A DNA stretch of 64,000 nucleotides from Quadrisphaera setariae (GTDB taxonomy: Bacteria; Actinomycetota; Actinomycetes; Actinomycetales; Quadrisphaeraceae): positions 248,001 to 312,000 of the forward strand of contig NZ_VKAC01000006.1 in assembly GCF_008041935.1 (NCBI RefSeq). The letters are read 5' to 3'. Shown here piece after piece: positions 879-16,313 of the stretch (positions are counted from its first letter, which is position 1; each line of letters begins with the position of its first letter). The position numbers and the translations under genes were made by a program. The notes under the pieces are model-generated. The model worked only from the letters and a program-made list of their open reading frames with translations, was not told the origin of the DNA and did not search any database.

Positions 879-1610
879 TCAGCGGCGGGGGATCTCGCCG
901 GTGGCCGTCAGCTCGAACGCGATGTCGTGGAGCTTCCGGTTGGTCTGCTGGCTGCGCGCCGACAGCAGCTCGAACGCCTGGTCGGCACTGAGCCGGTGCC
1001 GCTCCATGAGGACCCCCTTGGCCTGGCCGATGACGTCGCGGTGGGTCAGCCCCACGACCAGGTTCTCCAGCTTCTGGGCGCTCGCCAGCGCCACGGCCGC
1101 GTGCGCCGCGAGCAGCAGCCCGACCCGCTCGGACTCCTCGTCGAAGGCCCGCGGTGCTGCTGCGAGGAGGTTGAGGACGCCGAGGTCGTCGTCGCCGACG
1201 AAGAGCTGCAGGCAGAGCACGCTCGCCGCGCCGACCTCACCGGACCGGGCCGCGAGCTCCGGCCACCTGACCGTCTCCGAGGCCAGGTCGTCCACCCGCG
1301 TGGTCCGGCGCTGCGAGGCGGAGTCGAGGCAGGGACCCTGGCCGACCTCCTCCTGCAGCTCGTCCAGGCGGCGTCCGACAGCACTGGTCGACGCGGCGGG
1401 CACCACCCCTCCTCGCACCCGGGCCCCGGTGATGGTGCCGTGCTCGGCGTGGGGGACCAGCTCCACCGCGCAGTGCACCGCGCGGTCGAGCACCGCCCAC
1501 GACGAGCGGTCCCCGTTCATGTCGCGCGCGAGGTCGGCCAGCGCCCGTGCGAGACCGGTGACGTGCTCCGGGTGGCCAGCGCCCGCGCGAGAGCCCTGTC
1601 CAGCACCCAT
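879..1610 (-). CDS. GAF-ANTAR transcription antitermination regulator
   Basis: A protein of 243 residues from ATG 1610, or 213 from ATG 1520. I favour 1610 because the helix LARALADLARD, which opens the GAF region in relatives, lies between the two. A GAF domain covers about residues 30-175 and carries the family signature GQGPCLDSA followed by RWPELAARS. The C-terminal ANTAR domain (about 183-238) is canonical: IGQAKGVLMERHRLSADQAFELL. ANTAR domains bind paired hexaloop hairpins in nascent RNA and prevent termination, and the GAF domain presumably senses a ligand or a phosphorylated partner. The stop codon sits 3-4 bases from the receptor remnant. An unrelated gene diverges from its start. 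Confidence 0.85.
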   Translation of the reverse strand: MGAGQGSRAGAGHPEHVTGLARALADLARDMNGDRSSWAVLDRAVHCAVELVPHAEHGTITGARVRGGVVPAASTSAVGRRLDELQEEVGQGPCLDSASQRRTTRVDDLASETVRWPELAARSGEVGAASVLCLQLFVGDDDLGVLNLLAAAPRAFDEESERVGLLLAAHAAVALASAQKLENLVVGLTHRDVIGQAKGVLMERHRLSADQAFELLSARSQQTNRKLHDIAFELTATGEIPRR

Positions 1611-1709
1611 CCGCCCAGCGTCGCAGCCCCGGAGCGCCGCCACCTCTGGATCAGGGCGCTGACGGGCCCGGTGGTGAAGGTCCGGGCCGTTCCTGCCGAC
1701 AGCACGGGC

Positions 1710-2135
1710 ATGAGCGCCACGACGACCACCTCGACGTCCCTCCTCGGGACGGGGGCGGGCGTCGAGGCCCTGCGAGAGGCCTGCGACCGGCTGGTCGAGT
1801 CCGCCGCGGACCCGGCTGCCGCCCGGGCCGTCGTCGTCGCCGTGTGGGCCCTGGGAGCTGCCTCCACGGACCACCTGCTGGACGACCTGTGCGCTGCCGC
1901 TGCGACCGGCGCCGCGCGCACCGGCGCGCCCGTGGACGCGGGAGACCTGCTCGACCTCCTCGGCCGGCACGAGGCCGCCTCGCGGCTGCGAGGTGCCGTG
2001 GAGCGCGGGCTCGCCGCTCACGCCGAGGCGGCGCAGGAGGCGGCTCGCGCAGACCGCGCTGTGCTGGCCGCACGCGCCGCCGTCCGCATCGCCGCGACGG
2101 CGCAGCACCGGCGCACGGCCGCGCGCGCTGCCTGA
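1710..2135 (+). CDS. Hypothetical helical protein
   Basis: A 141-residue frame from ATG 1710 with an Ala/Asp/Glu/Val-rich composition typical of real actinobacterial proteins; overlapping frames are Arg/Pro-rich. It is predicted to be almost entirely helical: ALREACDRLVESAAD, a central DLLDLLGRHEAASRLRGAVERG segment and an amphipathic C-terminus rich in Ala and Arg. No signal peptide, membrane segment or known motif is visible. It diverges from the GAF-ANTAR gene across 99 bp and precedes a STAS-like gene on the same strand. Its position among regulators suggests a signalling accessory, but this is only context. Confidence 0.6.
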   Translation: MSATTTTSTSLLGTGAGVEALREACDRLVESAADPAAARAVVVAVWALGAASTDHLLDDLCAAAATGAARTGAPVDAGDLLDLLGRHEAASRLRGAVERGLAAHAEAAQEAARADRAVLAARAAVRIAATAQHRRTAARAA

Positions 2136-2360
2136 GGGCCGGGGGAACAGCTCCTCCGGGGGAGGTGTGGCGCGCCACGGACGGGGTAAGGGAGGAACGA
2201 GGCCGCGAGCAGCCCCCACGACGCAGCATCCCGCGCGCCTGGCTGCGCCGCCGGTCGAGACCGGCGCCGCCGGTCGTGGACCCCAGCGGCACGACCGGCG
2301 TCCCGAGGCGGCCGCCGCCCCTGGTGTTCCGACACACCTCGTCGAGGCCAGGAGCACCCC

Positions 2361-2834
2361 ATGGACGTCCAACGGCAGCACCACGACAGCGCCTGCCTGC
2401 TGGTGGTCAGCGGAGCAGTCACCGCAGCAGACGCGGACGAGCTGCGCGGGCAGTGCTACGCCGCCCTGTCCGAGGCCGTCGAACGGGCCGGCGCACCAGG
2501 GGCGACCGACCGAGACCCCTTCGACACCGGAGGCCCCGACCGGCCGCAGCCGGTGGACCTGCTCATCGACGCCCGCCGCGCGACGCGCTTCGACGACCTG
2601 GCGACGCGCGCGCTCAGCTCGGCGCGCACCCGTGTCCGTCACCTCGGCGGTCACGTCGTCGTCGTCGACGACGCGGCGGGAGCGCTGCAGACCAGCCTGA
2701 GGCGCACGGGGCTCGCCTTCCGGTTCCCCCGCTTCGACAGCCCGGCAGCAGCCGGTGCGTCCCTGGCCCGCGACCGGGAGGTGCGCTCGCTGAGGGACAC
2801 GCCCCTGGAGGCCAGGTGGCGCAGGGCCCGGTGA
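2361..2834 (+). CDS. STAS-like domain protein (anti-sigma antagonist type)
   Basis: 157 residues from ATG 2361. The arrangement resembles a STAS fold: strand ACLLVVSGAVTAADADELR, a helix, strand PVDLLIDARRATRFDD, a helix, then strand GGHVVVVDD. The usual phosphorylatable Ser/Thr position (D-S-T/S-G in active antagonists) is not obvious; ATRFDDLATRAL occupies that place, so it may be a non-phosphorylated scaffold-type STAS. An acidic Pro/Gly insert (about residues 47-62) splits the first helix from the second strand. It lies in a cluster of GAF-ANTAR and STAS genes, which fits a partner-switching network. The fold assignment is by pattern only. Confidence 0.6.
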   Translation: MDVQRQHHDSACLLVVSGAVTAADADELRGQCYAALSEAVERAGAPGATDRDPFDTGGPDRPQPVDLLIDARRATRFDDLATRALSSARTRVRHLGGHVVVVDDAAGALQTSLRRTGLAFRFPRFDSPAAAGASLARDREVRSLRDTPLEARWRRAR

Positions 2835-3009
2835 CGCGCCGCCCGCTGGCGGCGCCGTCCGCGCCACCGACGACGGCGCTCCGGACCGGGCCCGCGCCCC
2901 ACCGCGCCGTCGTCTCCCCGCGGGGTGACAGTGGGGTCAGGCGCGCGACGGCGGACCGGGGCTCCAGCAGCGATCCCATCCTCTGCAGCGGCACCAGGTT
3001 GGAGCCTCC

Positions 3010-3777
3010 GTGGACGAGCGCCGCCGTGACCGTCCAGGACCGCGCCGGGTGACCCACGCGGCCGTGCTGCGGCGCTCGACCGCCGGCGTCCCCGCCGCGC
3101 AGGTCGCCGACCGGCTGTGCGCCACCGCCGTCGTGCTGCTGGGCCTGGACGCCGGTGCACTGTGCGTCCTCCAGGCGCCGCAGGTCTCGGTGCCCGTGGG
3201 CATCAGCGGAGACCTCGCGCTGGTGGCCGAGCAGGTGCAGTTCACCGCGGGCGAGGGGCCGTGCTGGACCGCATACGACTCGGGAACTCCCGTCCTCGTC
3301 GACGACCTCAGCGCGCCCGGCTCCCCGGCGCAGGTCCGGTGGCCGGTGTACGTCGCCGAGCTGGTGCGGGTCACGCCGTGGCGGGGGCTGCTCGCACTGC
3401 CGGTGCGGGTGCGGCTCGGCGTGCCCGTGGTGCTGGTCGCCTACAGCGAAGCGCCCCTCGCCGCGCTCGGGCCGCCGCTGCAGGAGTGGCCCGCCGTGGT
3501 CACCGCCCTGGCCGAGGTGCTGGAGGCCGTGACGGCGGCCGCAGCTGAGCGGCCGCTCTGGCTCGACTCCTCCTCGGCGTGGCGCAGGGGACGGGTGTGG
3601 ATGGCGGAGGCCCTGCTCGTGCGCAGCACACCCGGTCTCGAGCCGTCGCCAGCGCTGGCCGCGATGCGCACCTACTGCGCGGTGGAGGGAGGAACGGTGG
3701 ACGAGGTCGCCGAGCAGCTGCTGTCCGGGACGCTCACCGCCGTCCAGGTGCTGGGCCTCCCCCGGGGGCCGGACTGA
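3010..3777 (+). CDS. GAF protein with degenerate ANTAR-like tail
   Basis: Up to 255 residues from GTG 3010; a second in-frame GTG at 3049 would give 242 and starts closer to the conserved region. The GAF core has the same signature as its neighbours: FTAGEGPCWTAYDSGTPVLVDDL at about residues 77-100, then RWPVY. The C-terminal 60 residues (RVWMAEALLVRS through LLSGTLTAVQ) align in length and helix pattern with ANTAR but lack the QAKG motif and the aromatic/basic positions that contact RNA. It may therefore have lost RNA binding and kept dimerisation. Its last 44 bases overlap the end of the opposing gene. Confidence 0.72.
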   Translation: MDERRRDRPGPRRVTHAAVLRRSTAGVPAAQVADRLCATAVVLLGLDAGALCVLQAPQVSVPVGISGDLALVAEQVQFTAGEGPCWTAYDSGTPVLVDDLSAPGSPAQVRWPVYVAELVRVTPWRGLLALPVRVRLGVPVVLVAYSEAPLAALGPPLQEWPAVVTALAEVLEAVTAAAAERPLWLDSSSAWRRGRVWMAEALLVRSTPGLEPSPALAAMRTYCAVEGGTVDEVAEQLLSGTLTAVQVLGLPRGPD

Positions 3778-4198
3778 CGGTGCGGTCGTGGTGGCGGGGA
3801 CAGATCAGCTCGCGGTGGAGCCCGAAGCCGCCGAGGACCTCCACCTGGAGGACGTCCTCGCAGACCGGGCACCGCTCTGCCGTCCAGCTGCTGGCCGCGG
3901 CGGTGTCGGTGAGGACGCGCCGGGCGAGCAGCCCCACCGGTGTCCCGCGCCGGCGGGCCTCGCTCAGCAGCAGCGCCTCGGCCTGGGCGACCGTGGTGCC
4001 CAGGTAGACGGACAGCGCGCCGGAGCAGCGCGCGACCTGCTCCCGGCGCCACAGCAGCGACGTGAGCGACGACGGTCTCGCGGACCCCGGGTGTGCGAGG
4101 TCGTCCTGTTCGAGGTGGGCCTGGTCGGGGGGTGGCACCGGCTCCTCGGGGCCGGCCCCCCGGCCGGCGGGCCCACCTGCGCTGCTCTTCGCGGCCAT
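3734..4198 (-). CDS. ANTAR-like protein with C-terminal zinc-knuckle motif
   Basis: 154 residues from ATG 4198. The N-terminal 45 residues are Gly/Pro/Ser-rich linker. Residues about 53-98 follow the ANTAR pattern: RREQVARCSGALSVYLGTT, then an AEALLLSEARRRG helix and LLARRVLTD. No GAF domain is present. The tail has CPVCEDVL followed about 20 residues later by ICPRHHDR, a C-x2-C...C-x2-H arrangement that could bind one zinc ion. I know of no standard family that joins ANTAR to such a knuckle. The 3' end overlaps the opposing GAF gene by 44 nt. A 26-bp perfect palindrome lies 28 nt upstream of the start. Confidence 0.6.
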   Translation of the reverse strand: MAAKSSAGGPAGRGAGPEEPVPPPDQAHLEQDDLAHPGSARPSSLTSLLWRREQVARCSGALSVYLGTTVAQAEALLLSEARRRGTPVGLLARRVLTDTAAASSWTAERCPVCEDVLQVEVLGGFGLHRELICPRHHDRTVSPAPGGGPAPGRR

Positions 4199-4226
4199 CG
4201 CGTCACTCCTCGCGGGGCGGGGCACC

Positions 4227-4252
4227 GGGAGCGCACGGGCCCGTGCGCTCCC
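4227..4252. promoter_or_regulatory. 26-bp perfect palindrome, zero spacer
   Basis: GGGAGCGCACGGG (4227-4239) is followed immediately by its exact reverse complement (4240-4252). It lies 28 nt upstream of the zinc-tailed ANTAR gene and 254 nt upstream of the divergent desaturase. With no loop it is poor as a terminator hairpin and better as a dimeric operator or a cruciform. The rest of the 4199-4506 divergent intergenic stretch shows only a weak 6-bp hairpin (4321-4326/4333-4338). Confidence 0.5.
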
Positions 4253-4506
4253 GCCCGCCGTCTCCCGCGACGTGCTTCACGGGCAGGGCTGACGGGCTCA
4301 GCGGCCGGGTCCGGGGCCGGAGGACTGCGTGGAGTCCTCGCTGCTGCCGGCAGGATGCTCCGCCGTCGCGCCCGGCGCCAGCCGACCGACGTGCGCGCCC
4401 TCGCGGGGCCGGACCGGGCGGCGTACCGTCTGACTCGGGGCTCCTGGCCTCTCAGCTACCCCGGACCCGGTGGCACACCGGCGGCGGTCGCGAGACGAGG
4501 ACACCC

Positions 4507-5601
4507 ATGACGACGACAGCACCCGCCCCCCGCGAGGGGACCCGACGGCGCTCGGGCAGCCGGCCGGCGACCCCGTACGCCGAGCTGTCCGCGCTGGTGC
4601 AGGCGGCGGGGCTCATGCGGCGGCGGTACGCCTACTACTGGGCGCGGTTCGCCGCGCTCCTCGGCGCTCTGGCCGCTGTGGCGGTGGCCTCGGTGCTCGT
4701 CGGTCACTCGTGGTGGCAGCTGCTCCTGGCCGCCGCGCTGGGCCTGGTCGTCACCCAGATGGCCTTCCTGGGGCACGACGCCGCCCACCGCCAGGTCTTC
4801 GTCTCCGGCCGGTGGAACGACTGGGCGACCCTGGTGCTCGCTCCGCTGCTCACCGGCATCAGCGCCACCTGGTGGGTGCGCAAGCACACCAGGCACCACG
4901 CCGCGCCCAACCAGATCGGCACCGACCCGGACATCGCGCCCGGCGCACTCGCCTTCCACCCCGCGGCCCTGGCCGGCCGCACGCGGCTGGGGCGCGCCCT
5001 CGCCCGGCACCAGGGCTGGTTCTTCTTCCCGCTGCTGCTCCTGGAGGGGCTCAACCTGCACGTGCAGGGCGTGAGGTCGCTGTGGGCTCGTGGTCCCGTC
5101 AAGCGCCGGTGGGTGGAGCTGTCCTTCATCACCGTCAGGCTGGGCGGCTACGTCGGGCTGCTGGCGTGGCTGCTGCCGCCGGGCATCGCCGCCAGCTTCC
5201 TGGCGGTCCAGCTGGCGGTGTTCGGCCTCTACATGGGCTGCTCCTTCGCCCCCAACCACAAGGGGATGCCGGTCGTGCCCGAGGGCGAGCGGCTCGGCTT
5301 CCTGCGGCGCCAGGTGCTCATGTCGCGCAACGTCACCGGCGGCCGGTTCGTGACGTTCGCGATGGGCGGGCTCAACCACCAGGTGGAACACCACCTGTTC
5401 CCCTCGATGCCGAGGCCGGCGCTGCGCCGGGCCCGTGAGCTCGTGCGCCCGTTCTGCGCCCGCCACGAGGTCCCGTACACCGAGACGAGCCTGGTGCGCT
5501 CCTACGGCATCGTGGTGCGCCACCTGAACGACGTGGGGCTGGCGGCGGGGCGAGACCCGTTCGAGTGCCCGCTCGTGGCGTCTTGGCGCCCTCGCGGGTG
5601 A
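4507..5601 (+). CDS. Membrane fatty-acid desaturase (acyl-lipid type)
   Basis: 364 residues from ATG 4507. All three histidine boxes of the membrane di-iron desaturases are present: HDAAH (about residue 93), HTRHH (about 129) and HQVEHH (about 300). Hydrophobic segments flank them (FAALLGALAAVAVASVLV, LLLAAALGLVVTQMAFL, YVGLLAWLLPP and others), giving four to six membrane passes. The enzyme inserts a double bond into membrane acyl chains with O2 and an electron donor, raising fluidity. It is a close paralogue of the desaturase at 16310-17428. It stands alone, followed 65 bp later by a GAF-ANTAR gene. Confidence 0.92.
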   Translation: MTTTAPAPREGTRRRSGSRPATPYAELSALVQAAGLMRRRYAYYWARFAALLGALAAVAVASVLVGHSWWQLLLAAALGLVVTQMAFLGHDAAHRQVFVSGRWNDWATLVLAPLLTGISATWWVRKHTRHHAAPNQIGTDPDIAPGALAFHPAALAGRTRLGRALARHQGWFFFPLLLLEGLNLHVQGVRSLWARGPVKRRWVELSFITVRLGGYVGLLAWLLPPGIAASFLAVQLAVFGLYMGCSFAPNHKGMPVVPEGERLGFLRRQVLMSRNVTGGRFVTFAMGGLNHQVEHHLFPSMPRPALRRARELVRPFCARHEVPYTETSLVRSYGIVVRHLNDVGLAAGRDPFECPLVASWRPRG

Positions 5602-5666
5602 GCGCCCTCCACCACCCGGTCCGCACCGAAGGGGTCGCCGCGGCCCCGCGAGGAGGTCTTCGGCTG

Positions 5667-6461
5667 ATGACCAACGAGGACGACGGCGTGACGGTCGACG
5701 CTGCGCCCGCGCGAGGCGTGGAACCCGCCGCTGTGGACGCCGAGGGGGTCAGCAGCGAGGTGGTCGACGCCTTCGTCAGCCTGGCCGACTCGCTCGTGGC
5801 GGACTACGACGCCGCCGACCTCCTGACGCACCTGGCCGAGCGCGCCGTGCACCTGCTGGGCATCACGGCCGCGGGGATCCTCGTCGCGGGCCCCCGCGGG
5901 CAGCTCCAGCTCGCAGCCTCCAGCTCGGAGTCGGTGGCCGGGCTGGAGCTGTTCCAGCTCAGCGTCGACGACGGCCCGTGCCTGGAGTGCTACGCCACCT
6001 GCGCCCCGGTGGTGGCGCTCGACGCCGGGTCCGTGCAGCGCCGGTGGCCCCGCTTCGCCCCCGCCATGCTGGACCGGGGCCTGTGCAGCGTCGTCGCCGT
6101 CCCGCTGCGGCTGCGCGAGCAGACGCTGGGTGCGCTGGGCATGTTCGCCTCCACGTCCGGCACCCCGACCCGGGCCGCGACCCGCGTGGCGCAGGGCCTG
6201 GCGGACATCGCCACCATCGCGATGCTCCACGAGCGCGCCACCAGCGACTCGCGCCTGCTGGCGGTGCAGCTGCAGGGGGCGCTCGACACGCGGGTGCTCA
6301 TCGAGCAGGCTAAGGGCGTCATCGCCGTCCAGCTGGGGACGTCGGTGGCTGACGCCTTCCTGGTGCTGCGCACCACCGCCCGGCACCGCGGACTGCGCCT
6401 GGCGGACCTCGCCCTGGCGCTGGTCGAGGGACGCCTCGACGCCCACCAGCTCGACGGCTGA
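5667..6461 (+). CDS. GAF-ANTAR regulator
   Basis: 264 residues from ATG 5667, with AGGAGG at 5651-5656 as ribosome-binding site, though the spacing of 10 nt is long. The GAF domain spans about residues 35-190, with VDDGPCLECYATCAPV and RRWPRFAPAML. The ANTAR domain at about 200-258 reads RVLIEQAKGVIAVQLGTSVADAF and then GLRLADLALALV, a full canonical version. It is expected to bind nascent RNA hairpins as a dimer. It is followed on the same strand by STAS and two more GAF-ANTAR genes. Among the array members it is the closest in pattern to the one at 7836-8600 (DGPCLECY versus EGPCLDCY), so those two probably arose by duplication. Confidence 0.87.
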   Translation: MTNEDDGVTVDAAPARGVEPAAVDAEGVSSEVVDAFVSLADSLVADYDAADLLTHLAERAVHLLGITAAGILVAGPRGQLQLAASSSESVAGLELFQLSVDDGPCLECYATCAPVVALDAGSVQRRWPRFAPAMLDRGLCSVVAVPLRLREQTLGALGMFASTSGTPTRAATRVAQGLADIATIAMLHERATSDSRLLAVQLQGALDTRVLIEQAKGVIAVQLGTSVADAFLVLRTTARHRGLRLADLALALVEGRLDAHQLDG

Positions 6462-6600
6462 GACAGCGCCGCGCCCCCCTGGTCGTTGGGCGGCAGGTGG
6501 TTGCCAGCGGGCCGCACGGCTGCCAGGCTGTCCGCACGGCCCCGACGTGGCCGTGCGGCCCCGGTCCCGGCAGCGCTCGGCACGAGCGGACGGAACTGCC

Positions 6601-6975
6601 ATGACCTCCCCGGTCCCTCCCGCCCCTGACAGCTGGGTGAGCACCGACCAGCGCCTCGCCGCCGGTGCCGCCCTGAGCCCTCCCGGGGGGCCGCCACCCG
6701 TCGTGCACCTGCGCGGCGAGCTCGACCTCGCCACCGAGGCCAGCACGCGGGCCGCGCTGCAGCTGTGGACCTCCACGGGCGCACTGCACCTCGTGGTGGT
6801 CACCAGCGCGGTGACCTTCGTCGACTGCGCCGGCCTGCGACCGCTGCGCGAGGTGGCCGCCGCGCTGGCCGTCCGCGGGGGGTGCGTCGAGCTCTCGACG
6901 CCTTCCCGCAGCGTGGTGCGGCTGGTGCGGCTCTCCGGCGCCAGCACCGGCCTGGCCCTGCCCGGCGCGAGGTAG
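6601..6975 (+). CDS. STAS domain anti-sigma factor antagonist-like protein
   Basis: 124 residues from ATG 6601. The STAS pattern is clear: PPVVHLRGELDLATEAST (strand 1 and helix 1), LHLVVVTSAVTFVDCAGLRPLREVA, then GGCVELSTPSRSVVRLVRLSG. In active antagonists the second block reads V-D-S-S/T-G-L. Here the phosphoacceptor position is replaced by Cys (FVDCAGL), so regulation by Ser/Thr phosphorylation appears lost. It may act constitutively or by redox. It lies between two GAF-ANTAR genes on the same strand, 139 bp after the first. Confidence 0.82.
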   Translation: MTSPVPPAPDSWVSTDQRLAAGAALSPPGGPPPVVHLRGELDLATEASTRAALQLWTSTGALHLVVVTSAVTFVDCAGLRPLREVAAALAVRGGCVELSTPSRSVVRLVRLSGASTGLALPGAR

Positions 6976-7020
6976 GGGTGTCCCGACCCCCGTTCGCGCG
7001 CGGACCCGCAGACTGCGACG

Positions 7021-7839
7021 GTGAGGGCGTGCCCGCACCCGCCAGCCGCGCAGCCGCTGGCGGTGAGCGTGGTGGGGCTCATCGGTGACCAGCTCTCCGC
7101 GGCGATGAGCGGATCCGGGCTGGCGGCCGCTGACAGCCTCTGCCGCGCCTGCGTCGCGCTGCTGGACGTCGACGGCGCCGCCATCACCGTGGTCGACCGC
7201 GGCCAGTCCCGCGGCACCTTCGGCTCCTCGAGCCCGCTCAGCAGGCGGCTGGACGAGTACCAGTTCACCTACGGCGAGGGACCGTGCCTCGACGCGGTCC
7301 GCCTGAGAGCGCCCGTGCTGGTCCCCGACGTGGGGGACCCGGTGGCGCAGCGGTGGCCCGCGTTCACCGCCAGCCTCCAGGAGGCCGGCGTCGAGGCCAT
7401 CTTCGCCCTGCCGGTCGCCGTCGCCGCGGCCACCGTGGGTGCCCTCGACCTGTTCCGCCACACCGCCGGTCCCCTGGACGGGCGCAGCCTGGAGGGGGCG
7501 CTCGCGGCGGCCCGGCTCGCCTCCTCACCGCTGCTCGACGTCGAGGAGGGGCTCGCGCGGCGGGCGGCGGCCGGTGTCGACGACGAGGAGCCGGCGGCCG
7601 CGTGGGCGGAGCTGGCGTCCCTGGAGCGCACCGAGGTGTACCAGGCCACCGGCTTCCTCATCGCCCAGGCGGGCCTGTCGTCCGTGGAGGCCCTGCTGCG
7701 GCTGCGGGCCCGCGGGTACACCACCGGCCAGACGGCCAGCGAGGTCGCCTGGGACGTCCTGGAGGGCCGTCTCTCCCTGGACCACGACGGTTCGTGGCAG
7801 CGTCACGCACGAGGCACCGGAGAGCAGGAGTCGCGATGA
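7021..7839 (+). CDS. GAF-ANTAR regulator
   Basis: 272 residues from GTG 7021. The GAF region (about 15-165) has YGEGPCLDAVRLRAPVLVPD and RWPAFTASLQEAG. The ANTAR-like tail (about 203-255) reads RTEVYQATGFLIAQAGLSSVEALLRLRARGY, keeping the first helix and A-x-G position but replacing the common QAKG with QATG. It starts 45 bp after the STAS gene and overlaps the next GAF-ANTAR gene by 4 nt (ATGA), so the two are translationally coupled. This may let the paralogues be made in fixed ratio and heterodimerise; that is inference. Confidence 0.85.
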   Translation: MRACPHPPAAQPLAVSVVGLIGDQLSAAMSGSGLAAADSLCRACVALLDVDGAAITVVDRGQSRGTFGSSSPLSRRLDEYQFTYGEGPCLDAVRLRAPVLVPDVGDPVAQRWPAFTASLQEAGVEAIFALPVAVAAATVGALDLFRHTAGPLDGRSLEGALAAARLASSPLLDVEEGLARRAAAGVDDEEPAAAWAELASLERTEVYQATGFLIAQAGLSSVEALLRLRARGYTTGQTASEVAWDVLEGRLSLDHDGSWQRHARGTGEQESR

Positions 7840-8600
7840 GCACCCGCAGCGAGCAGGACGTCGCCGGCTCCTTCGTCTCCCTGGCCACCGCGCTGGCCAC
7901 CGGGGCCGACGTGGTGGAGCTGCTCGCGGAGCTCACCGAGGACTGCGCCCGCCTCCTCGACGTCGACTCCGCGGGCCTGCTGCTGGCCGACGGCTCGGGC
8001 GTCCTCCACGTGCTCGCCGCCACGTCGGCGGACACCCGCGAGCTCGAGGTCTTCCAGACCCAGCGGGTGGAGGGCCCCTGCCTGGACTGCTACCGGTCGG
8101 GTGAGGTGCTGAGGGTGCCCGACCTGGAGGGGCAGGCGCAGCGCTGGCCCGCCTTCGCCGCCGTCGCGCTCGGCATGGGCTTCTCGTCGGTGCACGCCGT
8201 GCCGATGCGGCTGCGTGCGCGCAGGCTCGGCGCCCTCGGGCTGTTCGGCCGGCGCAGCGGCGCCCTCGACGACAGCGACCTCAGCCTGGGCCAGGCGCTG
8301 GCCGACGTCGCCAGCGTCGCGATCGTGCAGAACAGCAGCGCACCGGCGCCGGCGGAGGACGACGCCGTCCTGGAGTCGCACCTCCAGGACGCCCTGCGGG
8401 CTCGTGTCGTGGTGGAGCAGGCGAAGGGCGTGCTGGCGTACTCGGGCTCGATCAGCATGGCGCAGGCGCACGCGCAGCTGCGCGGCTACGCGCGCGACCA
8501 CGGGCTGCGCCTGAGCGACCTCGCCGCCGGCGTGGTCGAGCGCCGGACGCCGGTCAGGTCCGTGCTGGAGCACCGCAGCTCCACCGCTGACCTCCCCTGA
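7836..8600 (+). CDS. GAF-ANTAR regulator
   Basis: 254 residues from ATG 7836, inside the stop codon of the preceding paralogue. The GAF domain (about 12-165) carries VEGPCLDCYRSGEVLRVPDL and RWPAFAAVALGMG. The ANTAR domain (about 190-243) is canonical: RVVVEQAKGVLAYSGSISMAQAHAQLRGYARDHG without gaps, then LRLSDLAAGVVERR. It is the last gene of the same-strand array. A 7-bp hairpin at 8631-8648 follows and is a plausible terminator. Confidence 0.87.
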   Translation: MSTRSEQDVAGSFVSLATALATGADVVELLAELTEDCARLLDVDSAGLLLADGSGVLHVLAATSADTRELEVFQTQRVEGPCLDCYRSGEVLRVPDLEGQAQRWPAFAAVALGMGFSSVHAVPMRLRARRLGALGLFGRRSGALDDSDLSLGQALADVASVAIVQNSSAPAPAEDDAVLESHLQDALRARVVVEQAKGVLAYSGSISMAQAHAQLRGYARDHGLRLSDLAAGVVERRTPVRSVLEHRSSTADLP

Positions 8601-9996: not shown

Positions 9997-10578
9997 TCAG
10001 CGGACCCTGGCCGCAGCCCGGTCGCGGCGAGCGATCCGCACCCGCACGCGGGAGCGCACGTCGTCGCGGCCGAGCACCCGCGCCAGGTCGCTGCTGACCC
10101 CGTCGATCCCCGCCGACAGCGCGGCGAGGTCGGTGCGGGGGCCCGCTGTCACGCTCATGTCGGCGACCACCTGCCCGCGCACCTCCCTGAGCCGGCCCGA
10201 GGAGGCCCTCACGCCGGGGAGCTCACCGAGCACCTCGGCCGCAGCGGCGACCGCTGAGCTGCCGTCGACGGTGGACCGCCCGCCCCGGCCGGACCCGGGC
10301 AGGCGCAGCGGGCCGACGCGGGTGCTCGGCAGGTGCGCCAGCAGCCACCACAGGCCCAGCAGCGCCAGCACCGCTCCTGCCGCGGTGGAGGTCCACCGCC
10401 ACCAGCTGGTGGCGGTGACGTCGTCGAGGGGGGTGGTGGACAGCTGCTCGGGTGCCGCGGACCACACGCGCGTCAGCTGTCCCGCTCCCCACAGCACCGC
10501 GGCCGCACCCAGGGCGAGCAGGACCAGGGCGACGAGGACGGCGGCGGTGCGGTCCCAGCCCAGCACGCGGCGGCTCAC
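9997..10578 (-). CDS. AmaP-like membrane anchor of the Asp23 system
   Basis: 193 residues from ATG 10578. Two membrane segments (VLVALVLLALGAAAVLWGAG at about 14-33 and TSTAAGAVLALLGLWWLLAH at about 63-83) are followed by a cytoplasmic Asp23-like domain (VDGSSAVAAAAEVLGELPGV to the end). This is the architecture of AmaP, which tethers Asp23 to the membrane in Firmicutes. It is the last of six minus-strand genes coupled by overlaps; its ATG overlaps the preceding stop by 4 nt. The symbol amaP is not assigned because actinobacterial versions are divergent. Confidence 0.75.
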   Translation of the reverse strand: MSRRVLGWDRTAAVLVALVLLALGAAAVLWGAGQLTRVWSAAPEQLSTTPLDDVTATSWWRWTSTAAGAVLALLGLWWLLAHLPSTRVGPLRLPGSGRGGRSTVDGSSAVAAAAEVLGELPGVRASSGRLREVRGQVVADMSVTAGPRTDLAALSAGIDGVSSDLARVLGRDDVRSRVRVRIARRDRAAARVR

Positions 10579-11198
10579 GAGGTCCTCCCCGAGCGCTGCG
10601 GGCCGCCGGTGGCCGCGTGGACGCGGACCCGCGGCGGAGCGGTGAGCGCCGCCAGGGACCCGGCGACGGCGGAGGCCACCCGGGCGCGGACGTCACCGCC
10701 CCCACCGCCGGAGGCACCTCCGGTGGTCGTCACCTCGACCACCACCGTACGGCGCGTCGCCGAGGCCGACGCGTCCAGGACGCCGTCGACGTCCTCGGCG
10801 GCAGCGCGTGCGCGGCGCGCCACGTCGGCGGGCAGCAGGTGGGCACCGCTGCACCCGGCCAGCGCGAGCACTCTGCGGGTGCGCCGGCGCAGCGCGACCA
10901 CCAGCAGGGCCAGTCCCAGCAGCACCAGCGCCACGCCGGCGGCGACCACCCAGGGGGCGCGGGTCAGTCCGTCGACGGGGGTGGTGGCGCTGGTCAGCCA
11001 CGACTGCTGACCGCCCGGCCAGCCGGTGCCACCTCGGGGGGCGAAGACGCCGTCCCGCAGCAGCACGAGGCCGATCAGGGCCAGCAGCAGGGCCAGCAGG
11101 GGACCGACCCACCCGATCGGACCGGCGCCGGTGCGCGCAGCAGCGGCCCGCAGCGGCGCTGGCCCCGTCGTCGTCGGGGTCGTGGGGTCGGCGCTCAC
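10575..11198 (-). CDS. DUF6286-type membrane protein of the Asp23 operon
   Basis: 207 residues from GTG 11198, which overlaps the previous stop by 4 nt (GTGA). It has two membrane segments, VGPLLALLLALIGLVLLRDGVF (about 29-50) and PWVVAAGVALVLLGLALLVVALRRR (about 80-104). The cytoplasmic tail GAHLLPADVARRARAAAEDVDGV and VVVEVTTTGG resembles half of an Asp23 domain. Such proteins regularly sit beside Asp23 paralogues in actinobacteria. I infer a structural role in a membrane-bound Asp23 complex. No enzyme motif is present. Confidence 0.7.
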   Translation of the reverse strand: MSADPTTPTTTGPAPLRAAAARTGAGPIGWVGPLLALLLALIGLVLLRDGVFAPRGGTGWPGGQQSWLTSATTPVDGLTRAPWVVAAGVALVLLGLALLVVALRRRTRRVLALAGCSGAHLLPADVARRARAAAEDVDGVLDASASATRRTVVVEVTTTGGASGGGGGDVRARVASAVAGSLAALTAPPRVRVHAATGGPQRSGRTS

Positions 11199-11587
11199 GA
11201 GACGCGCCTGTGCTCGCCGCGGTCGTCCCGGGGGCGCACCACGGCGACCACGGCGACGCTGACGGCGCCGGTGCTCAGCGAGGCCATCGACGCCAGCTGC
11301 GCGGTGACGGCGGAGCGCACCGCGTCGGCGGTGTCCGCGGCGGCGCGGGGCCACACCGAGGCGACCTCGACCTCCACGTCCACCTGCGTGCCGGCCCTGG
11401 CCACCTCCACGCGAGGGAGGTCGCGGCCCAGCGAGCCGGAGACCACGCCGCTGGTGCGGCTGGCGGGGGCCACACCGGGTGCGGTCAGCACGGCGGCGCG
11501 GACCAGGCGGGAGACCGCGCGGTCGGCCACGGTGAGGCGGCCGCGCCCACCGGGCTCGTCACCGCCCTCGCCGTCAGCCGCGGCCAC
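11195..11587 (-). CDS. Asp23/Gls24-family envelope stress protein (divergent)
   Basis: 130 residues from ATG 11587, which lies 14 nt inside the end of the previous gene. The region LTVADRAVSRLVRAAVLTAPGV aligns with the start of Asp23 (I-A-x-x-V...P-G-V). VDVEVEVASVWPRAAADTADAVRSAV aligns with the central beta strand and helix, and ends in GAVSVAVVAVV. The C-terminus is basic (RPRDDRGEHRRVS). It is cytoplasmic, with no signal peptide or membrane segment. It is the third Asp23-like member of the operon. Confidence 0.75.
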   Translation of the reverse strand: MAAADGEGGDEPGGRGRLTVADRAVSRLVRAAVLTAPGVAPASRTSGVVSGSLGRDLPRVEVARAGTQVDVEVEVASVWPRAAADTADAVRSAVTAQLASMASLSTGAVSVAVVAVVRPRDDRGEHRRVS

Positions 11588-11756
11588 GGCCCGACACCGC
11601 CTCGACGACGTCGATCCTGCCGGAGGCCTGTGCCGCGACCAGGCCGCCGACAGCGCCGAGGAAGACGGCCAGGGCGAAGGCCGACCAGCCGCCGACCGCC
11701 GCGGCGACGGCCAGCAGGAGGCCGGCGATGACGCCCTGCATCACGGGTGTGCTCAT
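11574..11756 (-). CDS. Small DUF2273-like membrane protein
   Basis: 60 residues from ATG 11756, overlapping the upstream stop by 4 nt (ATGA). It is almost entirely a hydrophobic hairpin: VMQGVIAGLLLAVAAAVGG, WSAF, then ALAVFLGAVGGLVAAQASG, followed by a short polar tail. Length and topology match the DUF2273 small integral membrane proteins that accompany Asp23 and AmaP in many Gram-positive genomes. It probably helps anchor the Asp23 assembly. It is easily missed because of its size. Confidence 0.75.
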   Translation of the reverse strand: MSTPVMQGVIAGLLLAVAAAVGGWSAFALAVFLGAVGGLVAAQASGRIDVVEAVSGRGRG

Positions 11757-12118
11757 GGGTGCTCCCCTTCGAGTGGGGTGTCGAGGTCGGTGCGGTCCGC
11801 CAGGTCGGCGACGGTGACGTCCACCGGCAGCGGAACGAGGGTGCCCACCGCGCGGCGGACCCGTGCGGCGAGGGCCGCGAGGTCGGTGCGCAGGCCGCGG
11901 ACGGGTGCCGCCACCACGCACACCTCCACCGACGGCCGTCCGCCGTCGGTGCGCACGGCGACCCCGGTGACCCGCCGGCGGGGCAGGTAGGTGGCCACCG
12001 TTCCGGAGGGGCCCGCGTGCAGGGCAGCCACTCCGGGCACCGCGAGGACGACCTCGGCGACCAGTTCGGACAGGTCCGGCGCCTCGGTGGCGGTCGGGGC
12101 GGCCGGTGGGGTGCTCAC
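11753..12118 (-). CDS. Short Asp23-like protein
   Basis: 121 residues from GTG 12118, which overlaps the Asp23 stop codon by 4 nt (GTGA). A low-complexity N-terminus (PPAAPTATEAPD) leads into LSELVAEVVLAVPGVAALHAGPSGTVATYLP, corresponding to the first helix and P-G-V turn of Asp23, and later VEVCVVAAPVRGLRTDLAALAARVRRAVG. This is the Asp23 core without the Gly-rich C-terminal extension. It is probably a partner of the full-length Asp23 encoded just before it. Confidence 0.75.
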   Translation of the reverse strand: MSTPPAAPTATEAPDLSELVAEVVLAVPGVAALHAGPSGTVATYLPRRRVTGVAVRTDGGRPSVEVCVVAAPVRGLRTDLAALAARVRRAVGTLVPLPVDVTVADLADRTDLDTPLEGEHP

Positions 12119-12612
12119 TGGACGCGGGTCTGCCGCGGGGTGCTCCCGCGGTCGTCCGGGGACGAGGAGTCGTCGTCCTCGGACGGGACGTGGACGTCGT
12201 TGACGGCGATGTTGACCTCGGTGACCTCGAGCCCGGTCATCCGCTGCACGCTGGTGACGACGCTGCGGCGCACGGAGCCGGCCAGGTCGGCGATGGCCAC
12301 GCCGTACTCGGCGATGAGGTCGATGTCGACGGCTGCCTGCGTCTCCCCGACCTCCACCGAGATGCCCTGGGAGTGGTTGGTGCTGCCCCCGGGGATGCGC
12401 TCGCGCAGGGAGCCCATGGCGCGGGCGGCGCCGCCGCCCACGGAGTGCACCCCGCTGACCTCGCGGGTGGCGATCCCCGCGATCTTGGACACGACCGTGT
12501 CGGCGATGGTGGTGGTGCCCGCGCGGGTGGCCAGCTCGACGTCCCTGCCGCCGTTGGCGGACGAGGCGCCGGCGCTCGAGGTGCGGGGACCGGGGGTGGG
12601 GGTGCTGGACAT
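12115..12612 (-). CDS. Asp23/Gls24 family envelope stress response protein
   Basis: 165 residues from ATG 12612, with GGAGGA about 6 nt upstream. The full Asp23 domain spans about residues 30-140: TIADTVVSKIAGIATREVSGVHSVGG, then VEVGETQAAVDIDLIAEYGVAIADLA and VTSVQRMTGLEVTEVNIAVNDVHV. The C-terminal tail is acidic and Ser-rich (EDDDSSSPDDRG). Asp23 proteins gather beneath the membrane and protect the envelope under alkaline or general stress. It is the first gene of a six-gene operon joined by 4-14 nt overlaps down to 9997. About 520 bp of noncoding DNA upstream must hold the promoter. Confidence 0.9.
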   Translation of the reverse strand: MSSTPTPGPRTSSAGASSANGGRDVELATRAGTTTIADTVVSKIAGIATREVSGVHSVGGGAARAMGSLRERIPGGSTNHSQGISVEVGETQAAVDIDLIAEYGVAIADLAGSVRRSVVTSVQRMTGLEVTEVNIAVNDVHVPSEDDDSSSPDDRGSTPRQTRVQ

Positions 12613-13131: not shown

Positions 13132-15120
13132 GTGGTGAGCCGCGAGAACCTCCGCAGCGTCTTCGACGCGCTGCCCTTCGCGTGCGTTCTCCTGGACACC
13201 GACCTGGTGATCGTCCAGGTCAGCGGCGTGTACGCGACGACCATGGGGATGACCCGCGAGCAGCTGGTGGGCCGCCACCTGTTCGACGCCTTCCCGCGGT
13301 CGGACGCCGCCGAGGAGGCGGTCCGCCGGGGAGCGGTGGACCCCGTGGTGCTGGTGAGGGCCTCCCTGCAGCGGGTGCTCGACACCGGCCAGCCGGACCC
13401 GGTGCCGCTGCAGAAGTACGACCTGCCCGACGCCCGCAGCCCCACCGGGTTCAGCGAGCGGTGGTGGAGCTTCACCACCTTCCCCGTCACCGAGCCGCTC
13501 ACGGCCGCAGCGGCTCCCGCGCTCGCTCCCGTGCGTTCGGGAGCACAGGGCTCCGAGACAGCCCCCGTGCGCGTGAGCGGGCTGCTGCACCTCACCGAGG
13601 ACGTGACCGACGAGGTCGCGCGGCGCACCGGCCTGCCCGCCGGCGCCCTGCAGGCCGTCGCCGAGGAGGTCCAGCGATCCACCGCCCTGCTGCGCGGACG
13701 GACCCGGGAGCTGGAGGCGGACCTGTACGCCCGCGCGGTGCAGGTGCAGGCCCTCACCGCTGCCCGTGAGACCGCCGCCTCCCGTCTGGCCGGCTTGGCC
13801 CGGACCGCCCTGGCGCTGGCCGAAGCGCGCTCGGTGCAGGACCTCACCGACCAGATCAGCGACCAGGGACTCGCTGCCCTGGGCTGTGACGGCGGGGCGG
13901 TGGCCATCTTCACCCCCGGGGACGCCACCACGATGGACCTGACCATCACCGACGGTTTCGGGGAGGCGACCCAGCGCGACTACGCGCGGCTGCCCTCGGA
14001 CAGCCCTCTGCCAGCCTGCGTGGCGGCCACCACCGGACGCACGGTCCTGCTGCACGACGCCGCAGCAAGCACCGGGTGGGGTCCTGAGATGGGCGCGGTC
14101 ATGGCGTCCAGCGGCTCCCAGGCCTTCGCCTGCCTGCCGCTGACCGCCGGAGGACACCGGCTGGGGGCGCTCGTCGCCGGGTGGCGAGACCCGCAGGTCT
14201 TCGACGCCGAGCAGGTGGAGCTGCTGTCGGCCTTCGCCGCCCAGTGCGCGCAGGTGCTGGACCGCCTGCTCGTGGCGGAGGCGGAACGTGCAGCGGCCCT
14301 GGCGGCTGCCGCGGCGTGGGAGACCCTGCAGCGGTCCCTGCTGACCGCTCCCCCCGAGCCCGACCACGCCCAGGTGGTGGTGCGCTACCGTGCCGCCGCG
14401 CGTGCAGCCCAGGTCGGCGGAGACTGGTACGACGCCTTCATCCAGCCCGACGGGTCTTCGGTGCTGGTCATCGGGGACGTGATCGGCCACGACACCATCG
14501 CCGCCGCCGCGATGGGGCAGGTGCGCACCATGCTGCGCTCCGTGGCCGCCCACACCGGGGAGGGCCCGGCGGCGGTGCTGACCGCCACGGACCGGTTGCT
14601 GCGCACCCTCATGCTCGAGACCTCCGCCACAGCGCTGGTGGCGCGTCTGGAGCAGAGTCCGGACGAGCGGGCGCGTGGTGTGAGCCGGGTGCGCTGGTCC
14701 AGCGCGGGTCACCTGCCGCCCCTGCTGATCGACGGCCATGGCGCGGTGACGCTGCTGGGCGCGATGGGCGCCGACCTGATGCTGGGCGTGGATCCCCAGA
14801 CCCCTCGTCACGAGTCCGAGGTGACCGTCGACCGCGGCTCCACGCTGCTGCTGTACACGGACGGGCTGGTGGAGCGGCGCGGTGAGTCCCTCGAGGTCGG
14901 GCTGGAGCGGCTGCGGCTCGCGGCGGAGGACCTCGCGGCCGCTGGCGCGGGTCTGGACGACCTCGTGGACGGGTTGCTGGTGCGACTCGTCGACGTCCAG
15001 GGGGAGCGCGCGGATGACGACGTGGCGCTGATCGCCGTCCGGCTGCACCGCCAGGACCGGCCTCGGCCGGCCGAGGCCGGTCCCCGCTCGCTCCCGGAGG
15101 ACGTCGCGGCTGACGGCTGA
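13132..15120 (+). CDS. PAS-GAF-PP2C (SpoIIE-type) serine phosphatase
   Basis: 662 residues from GTG 13132, which has AGGA 9 nt upstream; a TTG at 13105 would add nine residues. A PAS domain (about 1-135, LRSVFDALPFACVLLDTD to GLLHLTEDVTDE) is followed by a coiled linker. A GAF domain follows (about 230-380, ALGCDGGAVAIFTPG to EQVELLSAFAAQCAQ), then a PP2C/SpoIIE domain (about 415-645). The metal-binding motifs are intact: VGGDWYDAF, VIGDVIGHD, WSSAGHLPPLL, LLYTDGLVERR and ADDDVALIAVR. Such RsbU-like enzymes dephosphorylate STAS antagonists and so release sigma factors from anti-sigma kinases. A STAS gene lies tail-to-tail 5 bp away. Confidence 0.93.
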   Translation: MVSRENLRSVFDALPFACVLLDTDLVIVQVSGVYATTMGMTREQLVGRHLFDAFPRSDAAEEAVRRGAVDPVVLVRASLQRVLDTGQPDPVPLQKYDLPDARSPTGFSERWWSFTTFPVTEPLTAAAAPALAPVRSGAQGSETAPVRVSGLLHLTEDVTDEVARRTGLPAGALQAVAEEVQRSTALLRGRTRELEADLYARAVQVQALTAARETAASRLAGLARTALALAEARSVQDLTDQISDQGLAALGCDGGAVAIFTPGDATTMDLTITDGFGEATQRDYARLPSDSPLPACVAATTGRTVLLHDAAASTGWGPEMGAVMASSGSQAFACLPLTAGGHRLGALVAGWRDPQVFDAEQVELLSAFAAQCAQVLDRLLVAEAERAAALAAAAAWETLQRSLLTAPPEPDHAQVVVRYRAAARAAQVGGDWYDAFIQPDGSSVLVIGDVIGHDTIAAAAMGQVRTMLRSVAAHTGEGPAAVLTATDRLLRTLMLETSATALVARLEQSPDERARGVSRVRWSSAGHLPPLLIDGHGAVTLLGAMGADLMLGVDPQTPRHESEVTVDRGSTLLLYTDGLVERRGESLEVGLERLRLAAEDLAAAGAGLDDLVDGLLVRLVDVQGERADDDVALIAVRLHRQDRPRPAEAGPRSLPEDVAADG

Positions 15121-15125
15121 ACGGC

Positions 15126-15470
15126 TCAGGCTGTGGCCGCCTCCACGTCCGGGAACACCTCCAGGACGGCGGCCAGCCCGGTGACGGACAGCATCATCTG
15201 CAGCTGGTCGGAGGTGCCGGTCAGGCGCAGCGCGCGACCGCTGCGCTTCGCCCGCTGGTAGCCACCCACCAGGACGCCCAGTCCGGTGGAGTCCATGAAG
15301 GCCACCTGCAGCAGGTCGATCACCACTCCGCGGGGGGAGGGGACGGGTGCCGGGGGCAGCAGCGCTCTGATCGCTTCGGCGAAGGTGTCAGCGGTGAAGA
15401 GGTCGACCTCACCTGCGGCCCTCAGCACCGCCCATCCTGAGTGTTGACGGCTGTCGAGCACGAGTCCCAC
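15126..15470 (-). CDS. STAS anti-sigma factor antagonist
   Basis: 114 residues from GTG 15470, with GGGAGAG about 7 nt upstream. It is a complete STAS domain: WAVLRAAGEVDLFTADTFAEAIRALL, GVVIDLLQVAFMDSTGLGVLVGGYQRA, ALRLTGTSDQLQMMLSVTGL. The phosphorylatable Ser in FMDSTGLGVL is intact, unlike the STAS proteins at 2361 and 6601. It is the best candidate substrate for the SpoIIE phosphatase that ends 5 bp away on the other strand. Dephosphorylated, it would sequester a HATPase-type anti-sigma factor. Confidence 0.9.
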   Translation of the reverse strand: MGLVLDSRQHSGWAVLRAAGEVDLFTADTFAEAIRALLPPAPVPSPRGVVIDLLQVAFMDSTGLGVLVGGYQRAKRSGRALRLTGTSDQLQMMLSVTGLAAVLEVFPDVEAATA

Positions 15471-15590: not shown

Positions 15591-16313
15591 TCAGAGGGGT
15601 GGATCGACGGGAGCGACGGGGCGGACCCGGGCGTCTCGAGTGCCGTCGTCACGCTCCTCAGGCGTCCCACCACCGTCGTCGGACCTGAGGAGCAGAGCTG
15701 CCTGCCGGCGCGCTGCTGCGGCGTCGCGGCGGGCGCTGGCGGCGCGCCTGCGGTCCTCGCGGGCCTCCTGGCGGTCGCTGGCGGCCCAGTCCCGCGCCAC
15801 GGCGGCGTGGTGGCGCTCGATGGCCCCTGCTCCCCGCTCTGCCGGCAGGTGGGGGCTCAGCCTGGCGAAGGCGTCGCGCCCCACCGCCCGGGTGTCCCGG
15901 GCCTCGGCGGCGCGGTCGCGGCGGTCCGCCACGACGTCCAGGGCGTCAGCGACCTCGTCGAGGCGGTCGGCGACGTCGTCGATCTCGTGCGCGAGGCTTC
16001 GGCGCCTCGCGCTGGAGTGCGTGCCCGCGAGGACCACCTGCAGGTCGCGGGCCCGCGTGCTGAGGCGGTCCCGCTCCTGCAGGAGCAGCAGCGTGGTCAA
16101 CCGCTCGGCGGTCCCGTGGTGGTCGGCCACCTCGCCCTGGCCGGCGGGCTCACGCAGGCCGGTGACCGGATCGCGCGGCGGTGGCGCGTCCTCGTGGGAG
16201 CCTCCGTGCCGGTGTTCGCCCATGCGGGGCACGGTAGGCGCGTCCTCGGCTGATCGCTGGGTCAGCGTGAGGCCGATGACGCCGGCGGGGACGGTGGGGG
16301 TGCGGTTCGTCAT
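15591..16313 (-). CDS. Coiled-coil protein with RD-rich heptads
   Basis: 240 residues from ATG 16313, which overlaps the desaturase stop by 4 nt (ATGA). An internal ATG at 16223 would give 210. The N-terminal 55 residues are polar and His/Gly-rich. From about 70 to 215 it is a long helix with repeated R-D spacing: LLLLQERDRLSTRARDLQ, HEIDDVADRLDEVADALD, VVADRRDRAAEARDTRAVGRD, DRQEAREDRRRAASARRDAA. No membrane segment is seen. Coupling to the desaturase suggests co-expression. I do not know a function; similar RD-rich coiled coils in actinobacteria are sometimes linked to GAF or ANTAR domains, which are absent here. Confidence 0.7.
   Translation of the reverse strand: MTNRTPTVPAGVIGLTLTQRSAEDAPTVPRMGEHRHGGSHEDAPPPRDPVTGLREPAGQGEVADHHGTAERLTTLLLLQERDRLSTRARDLQVVLAGTHSSARRRSLAHEIDDVADRLDEVADALDVVADRRDRAAEARDTRAVGRDAFARLSPHLPAERGAGAIERHHAAVARDWAASDRQEAREDRRRAASARRDAAAARRQAALLLRSDDGGGTPEERDDGTRDARVRPVAPVDPPL

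Follow-up and report, generated by a model that had tools for sequence, protein, structure and literature searches.

A conserved gene pair for a lysine-less and a canonical GAF-ANTAR protein in an ANTAR gene cluster of Quadrisphaera setariae

We analysed a window of 64 kb (the whole stretch studied, positions 248,001 to 312,000 of contig NZ_VKAC01000006.1; GC 70-79%) of the 4.91-Mb genome of the actinobacterium Quadrisphaera setariae, in which genes for ANTAR-type proteins are clustered between positions 879 and 8,600. Two of these genes, 7063-7839 and 7836-8600, overlap by 4 nt (ATGA at 7836-7839) and code for two GAF proteins with ANTAR tails: the downstream one, named here the partner, keeps the lysine known to contact base G4 of the hexaloop RNA, and the upstream one, named psi-ANTAR, lacks it. 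We observed that this pair recurs in many related genomes. Tentatively, as something close to an even call, we propose that it codes for a sensor of two subunits made together, of which the partner alone would grip hexaloop RNA and the psi subunit would modulate it; we infer the complex itself, the loss of RNA binding by psi, the direction of control and the targets.

To follow the pair across genomes, a psi profile was built from eight psi proteins and searched in 148 genomes of the class. Since these searches scored at most 19 (class) or 14 (phylum) candidates per genome, the genome counts are lower bounds. Matches at E ≤ 1e-20 occur in at least 71 of the 148 class genomes, the weak ones including canonical proteins. 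At 145 bits or more there are 55 matches in the class sample. One of them lies where a contig ends; of the remaining 54, 49 are followed directly by a partner gene on the same strand. Among these 49 pairs, 28 are complete, one (L073) has a partner that the contig end truncates beyond the GAF part, 18 were assigned by coordinates and profile match, without a residue-by-residue check, and two come from fetched loci, the partner in one of them (L113) being a 66-residue ANTAR tail only. A phylum sample of 198 genomes gave 17 new loci; 12 are of psi type, and nine of these 12 are paired, two of the nine partners being cut by a contig end before the ANTAR part. The class set already contained two of the 12 loci, a paired and an unpaired one. 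According to our own gene calls, the 4-nt overlap is found in 13 of 29 pairs, the rest being spaced by 25 to 170 nt. In the loci examined, a search for ORFs carrying two ANTAR domains found none, with a profile that may miss psi tails.

We then compared the residues expected to contact RNA. The register was fixed by alignment to the solved chains of EutV, NasR, PAL, Rv1626 and AmiR, and chain numbers were converted to those of the papers with an offset of our own. In EutV, Y164 provides the stacking surface for hexaloop base G4, which R142, K149 and E160 coordinate, and R168 touches the ribose (PMC8934654, available text); in NasR, changes at R340, W362 (W362A), R366 or N373 destroy RNA binding, and with K347R it is about ten times weaker (PMC7496416, available text). 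At the position of K149, no lysine is present in any of the 29 psi proteins (T 24, A 2, S 1, V 1, Q 1), and their partners have K in 28 cases and R in one. Position 146 is H (19), Y (9) or D (1) in psi proteins and E in 29/29 partners; position 164 is L (20), F (6), M (2) or V (1) in psi proteins and F (26) or H (3) in partners. Psi proteins keep R168, Q147 and G150 in 29/29 cases each and R142 in 22/29; partners keep R142 in 29/29 and R168 in 28/29. Because residues are thus conserved across the 29 psi proteins (Q147, G150 and R168 without exception), the psi domain is altered in a fixed way and not decaying. Its homology to ANTAR is also indicated by an hhalign probability of 96.8 between the psi and ANTAR profiles. 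At E ≤ 4e-6, which approximates the curated cut-off of the Pfam family PF03861 (27.3 bits), this family detects 29/29 partners and 17/29 psi proteins; counts of PF03861 matches include lysine-less paralogues beside likely binders and overlook others.

The two proteins also differ upstream of the RNA-contacting residues, where a proline or a GG lies in the 14 residues before R142 in 24/29 psi proteins versus 1/29 partners. The AlphaFold2 (AF2) model of 7836 has a continuous helix at 176-204 (mean pLDDT 87.7), and that of 7063 has a helix at 187-203, a low-confidence stretch at 173-189 and three helices in the tail (mean pLDDT 78.8). The models agree with the Pro/GG pattern, with a long predicted helix in 7836 and a shorter one in 7063. 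A Foldseek search with the psi model gave no ANTAR protein among the best 50 matches listed, these being either GAF domains or larger sensor proteins matched in part. In the partner GAF domain (7836-8600 and its 28 relatives) a Cys is conserved in 29/29 and a second one, three residues further on, in 26/29 (motif GPC(L)DC); the first position is Cys in 22/29 psi GAF domains and the second in 2/29. This motif of the partner is a possible redox or metal switch.

The descent of the two types was examined with a tree of 98 GAF-ANTAR proteins, obtained by a quick IQ-TREE search without bootstrap after short and overlapping ORFs were dropped; 36 of its 95 inner branches have a support below 80, and the classes psi and partner were assigned by profile score. 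The psi side (42 psi proteins, four proteins of the type encoded at 3049, and the protein of locus L008) is split from the canonical side with a Shimodaira-Hasegawa-like approximate likelihood ratio test (SH-aLRT) value of 100, and 40 partner-type proteins form one group with an SH-aLRT value of 99. The distance matrices of the pair members correlate with r = 0.85 over 29 pairs, the permutation maximum being 0.26; this looks as expected for co-inheritance and would not, alone, demonstrate contact.

The pair stands in a wider cluster. The six ORFs that the first-pass annotation had read as ANTAR genes are all present at about the positions it gave, the gene calls shifting two starts to 3049 and 7063 (instead of 3010 and 7021). 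Pfam also confirmed the two STAS proteins and the desaturase that it had placed among them. The features are as follows.

879..1520, minus strand: GAF-ANTAR protein with the canonical lysine, separate ANTAR lineage (PF03861 68.4 bits; tree; alignment)
2361..2834, plus strand: STAS-like protein, Asp (FDD) at the usual phosphoserine position (PF01740 24.4 bits, cut-off 22.6)
3049..3777, plus strand: GAF protein with a strongly diverged psi-ANTAR tail, unpaired (GAF match only, no PF03861 match; tree)
3734..4198, minus strand: ANTAR-like domain without GAF match, with a Cys-rich CxxC...C tail (PF03861 14.8 bits, below cut-off; hhalign)
4507..5601, plus strand: fatty-acid desaturase (PF00487 130.6 bits)
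5667..6461, plus strand: GAF-ANTAR protein with the canonical lysine, partner group, without an adjacent psi gene of its own (PF03861 55.0 bits; tree)
6601..6975, plus strand: STAS protein, Cys (DCAG) at the usual phosphoserine position (PF01740 38.9 bits)
7063..7839, plus strand: GAF-psi-ANTAR protein, first gene of the pair (PF03861 21.9 bits, below cut-off; hhalign)
7836..8600, plus strand: GAF-ANTAR protein with the canonical lysine, second gene of the pair (PF03861 55.1 bits)
13132..15120, plus strand: PAS-GAF-SpoIIE phosphatase, wider neighbourhood (PF07228 127.5 bits)
15126..15428, minus strand: STAS protein, Ser at the phospho-position (DSTG), wider neighbourhood (PF01740 65.5 bits)

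Three of the six proteins score above the PF03861 cut-off and the other three are below it or unmatched, with ANTAR-like tails without the lysine, so that six ANTAR proteins stand in part only. Indeed, the lysine equivalent to K149 is kept in 879-1520 (GQAKG, with Phe at the position of EutV Y164 and Ser at that of R168), in 5667-6461 (EQAKG, Phe at the Y164 position) and in 7836-8600 (EQAKG, His at this stacking position). It is missing in 7063-7839 (YQATG: Thr at K149, Tyr at E146 and Leu at Y164), in 3734-4198 (RCSG: Ser at K149, Glu at Y164 and Leu at R168) and in 3049-3777, where WMAEA replaces QAKG. The lysine and the aromatic residue that grip loop base G4 are both present in 879 and 5667, and neither is present in 7063-7839. 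The tail of 879 aligns to PDB entry 6hmj, which we take to be PAL, and the ANTAR profile aligns to NasR (4akk). The weak-scoring tails (3049, 3734, 7063) still look homologous to ANTAR, that of the 3734 type aligning to it with an hhalign probability of 93.8% (E 1.7e-7). On Pfam scores and residues, we rejected a cluster of six equivalent ANTAR proteins. In the tree, 5667 falls in the partner group, 3049 on the psi side and 879 in a separate ANTAR lineage; the cluster therefore consists of a pair of the conserved type, an extra partner (5667), an unpaired psi protein (3049), a separate ANTAR protein (879) and a GAF-less ANTAR-Cys protein (3734).

In the whole genome, nine PF03861 matches were found at E ≤ 1e-3, seven of them over the cut-off; four of the nine fall in this cluster, and the clustering of ANTAR genes here exceeds chance. 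The abundance as such is ordinary, since 39 of 39 genomes in a sample of relatives carry ANTAR genes, with 4 to 13 each in 12 genomes of the same family. Related contigs occur in Streptomyces sp. NP160 and in a metagenome-assembled genome of Actinomycetales. The NP160 contig has the 879, 5667, 7063, 7836 and 3734 types, both STAS types, the desaturase and SpoIIE in a different gene order; the 3049 type is absent from it and sits on other NP160 contigs. Relatives of the 3049 type occur in the genome studied and in congeners, and a second such GAF protein (L054:7571-8350), 43% identical to the window copy, lies some 10 kb before the window begins. Among 149 genomes of the order, four have the GAF-less ANTAR-Cys type, the genome studied included, one match being weak; in three genomes of the genus the CxxC...C tail, possibly metal-binding, is joined to the ANTAR-like domain. 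Beside the 879 gene, a short ORF at 649-858 presumably corresponds to the tail of a chemoreceptor signalling domain, and a 141-aa ORF at 1710-2135, between 879 and the first STAS gene, has no Pfam match at E ≤ 0.01. An operon-like run of genes at 9997-12612, in which 12115-12612 is Asp23 (103.4 bits), separates the cluster from the SpoIIE gene.

The ANTAR proteins had been assumed to act on RNA hairpins, which by the lysine is plausible for three of the six. We searched for targets by an exact scan for dual hexaloops with A1 and G4 (stems of at least 4 bp, linkers of up to 25). It gave none in 25 psi leaders (shuffle mean 0.14) and none in 201 control leaders (shuffle mean 0.60). In the 64-kb window it gave three dual hexaloops, one on the plus and two on the minus strand and none in the cluster, within the range for other placements of A and G in the loop (0-5 per strand). 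With stems of at least 3 bp, none was found in eight desaturase leaders, and seven cluster leaders gave one pair with stems of 3 and 4 bp, inside the upstream ORF 1710-2135. We also used a covariance model, R1, made from 30 random dual hairpins, and a control model, R2, with the loops rotated by one base; both penalise linkers far from 7. In the own genome, at E ≤ 10, R1 gave three matches versus seven for R2, the best 150 of 13,893 and 14,490 candidates being scored; in the window plus L054, R1 gave 28 versus 39. The genome-wide search proposed with the first-pass annotation thus yielded no excess over controls, and because 150 of about 14,000 candidates were scored this is weak negative evidence and no refutation.

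Concerning the STAS proteins, antagonists of the RsbV/SpoIIAA type carry a phosphorylatable Ser or Thr in a D-[ST]-x-G loop. For 6601-6975, the three orthologues compared (window, L055, L056) all have Cys there (DCAG), and the window protein scores 45.7 bits against TIGR00377, below the cut-off of 53.45. In 2361-2834 the position is Asp (FDD) in both orthologues compared (window, L055). An action of these two STAS proteins on anti-sigma kinases, as first supposed, is therefore doubtful. The phosphorylatable Ser is present in 15126-15428 (DSTG), outside the cluster. Elsewhere, ANTAR is indeed linked to the SpoIIE arm of the partner-switching pathway: in L107:6906-8903 a partner-type GAF-ANTAR protein is fused to a SpoIIE phosphatase. 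ORFs with a C-terminal extension like that of L107, cut by the locus end, were seen in L076 and L081, the latter from the same genome as L107 (G263).

Neighbours of the pair were collected as four genes on either side at 22 loci; proteins below 110 aa or above 900 aa, out-of-frame ORFs and the pair genes were dropped, leaving 123, of which 121 were used. The set retains the long psi protein of L111, the fused partner of L107 and the third ANTAR protein of L096. SpoIIE is matched 8 times (the fused protein included), GGDEF 4, EAL 3 and FA_desaturase 3 times among the 121 proteins, within the best 25 of 151 matched families listed. In a motif-based control, SpoIIE occurs in 3/158 near versus 1/70 far proteins; because this control is too insensitive, we claim no enrichment. 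By motif, desaturase genes stand only a few genes away from the pair in L055, L057, L058, L098 and L105, as in the window. In the window, a second desaturase-like gene (16310-17428), which by eye resembles 4507-5601, lies near another STAS gene and the SpoIIE gene.

Taken together, the explanation that we favour would work as follows. The core is a two-gene, often overlapping unit, whose products are both GAF sensors with an ANTAR tail. Most of the hexaloop-contacting residues are kept in the downstream protein, together with a predicted long helix of the dimerization kind; in the upstream protein the ANTAR domain is altered but conserved, and it lacks both the lysine that contacts G4 and this long helix. 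Both would form one sensory complex in which the downstream subunit alone grips the RNA hexaloop, and the upstream subunit may mask, release or position it according to the signal of its own GAF domain. The other cluster members are relatives: an extra partner-type ANTAR protein (5667), an unpaired psi protein (3049), the ANTAR-Cys protein (3734) and the separate ANTAR protein (879). Heterodimers among paralogues had been suggested in the first-pass annotation; for 7063/7836 this receives indirect support from conserved order, frequent overlap and co-inheritance, but one of the two is lysine-less and the other intact, and they are not equal paralogues. Possible, and more speculative, is a broader view for Actinomycetota: an ancient, conserved two-subunit RNA regulator, made of a pseudo-ANTAR and an active ANTAR protein that are encoded by one often overlapping gene pair, are obligately associated and each have their own GAF domain, would integrate two signals before one hexaloop is gripped, and in some lineages the active subunit, fused to SpoIIE, would join RNA-level and partner-switching sigma control.

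Several observations weigh against the two-subunit sensor. Five of the 54 strong psi matches have no tandem: those of G204, G266, G274 and G275 are unpaired and that of G261 faces another ANTAR gene; three of the four unpaired genomes belong to one genus, with genomes of 7.8-9.7 Mb, and the psi frame of G274 holds an internal stop. Two pairs of the phylum sample (L142, L148) lack the ANTAR lysine in both members, and an unpaired protein of the partner group, L124:3289-4074, has EQATG, which represents another way of losing the lysine. Of the EutV contacts, the third one, E160, is present in 0/29 partners, and the window partner 7836 has His at the stacking position, so that partners may bind differently or weakly. 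An EutV-like heterodimer via the coiled-coil helix is unlikely because psi lacks that helix, and the mirror-tree correlation may come from common descent alone. Finally, no target RNA was found, leaders, window and genome being not above controls at low power.

Other explanations of the pair have to be weighed. That the psi domain still binds RNA with another loop, its residues at positions 146 (H/Y), 149 (T) and 164 (L) forming a new specificity so that the pair reads two hairpins, is unlikely in our view but deserves attention: the domain is conserved and not decaying (Q147, G150 and R168 in 29/29, R142 in 22/29, H/Y146 in 28/29) and Phe164 persists in 6/29 psi proteins. However, the changed positions include the residues acting on G4, position 177, a backbone-contacting Arg in EutV, is Pro in 10/29 and Arg in 3/29 psi proteins, and A1/G4 dual hairpins occur in 0/25 psi leaders, hairpins with other loops not having been looked for. 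We consider it rather improbable that the partner acts alone as a homodimer, psi being a separate GAF sensor or a titrator whose remaining ANTAR part plays no role at RNA and whose adjacency reflects co-expression only. The partner keeps its own dimerization-type helix (Pro/GG in 1/29), and both partner-group proteins without psi (5667-6461; L123, L124) and unpaired psi genes (L114, L116, L117) exist, but fixed order and adjacency (49/54), the 4-nt overlap (13/29) and the co-inheritance (r = 0.85) are less well accounted for.

The first reading of the locus, a single stress circuit of six ANTAR proteins and STAS proteins that works at both initiation and elongation, seems to us very unlikely. 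A SpoIIE phosphatase and a STAS protein with the phospho-serine do lie 4.5-6.8 kb downstream of the cluster, the fusion of L107 joins a partner-type ANTAR to SpoIIE, and SpoIIE makes up the 8 of 121 neighbour proteins given above, with the fused protein counted and without an adequate background control. However, both STAS proteins within the cluster lack the phosphoserine, three of the six ANTAR proteins lack the RNA-contacting lysine and dual hexaloops are not in excess.

ANTAR proteins, GAF-ANTAR proteins and their abundance are already known. For pairs of psi-ANTAR and ANTAR proteins, a literature search confined to one open-access library found no description. The actinobacterial ANTAR-target RNA system (PMC8164766, available text) concerns the same phylum, with often several ANTAR proteins per genome; its survey counts PF03861 matches and, in the text available, does not mention psi/canonical pairs, and no such target RNA was found here. 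Antagonists of the RsbV/SpoIIAA type share the STAS domain with the cluster, which has a SpoIIE phosphatase gene in its wider neighbourhood, but differ in that the two STAS proteins among the window ANTAR genes lack the phosphoserine. According to the available text of PMC8934654, the EutV dimer was not seen binding both hexaloops at once and the reason for ANTAR dimerization is open; an ANTAR lineage whose members consistently have another residue in place of the G4-contacting lysine, and which occurs together with an intact ANTAR protein, would help to test why ANTAR proteins dimerize.

One-component ANTAR regulators, such as NasR (NIT-ANTAR) and Nakamurella PAL (PAS-ANTAR-LOV), resemble the proteins described here in combining a sensor domain with an ANTAR tail. 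Those are single-gene regulators, NasR being a constitutive dimer (PMC7496416, available text), whereas here a lysine-less paralogue is co-encoded, often by an overlapping gene. The systems NasS-NasT and EutW-EutV are alike in using two proteins for one RNA output. NasS, the controller of NasT, is not known to be an ANTAR protein. EutW is a histidine kinase controller (PMC7496416, available text), whereas here the proposed controller is a paralogue of the ANTAR protein and has a GAF sensor of its own. By analogy, the psi-partner unit would most economically be compared in its logic to NasS-NasT, with a paralogue as the controller.

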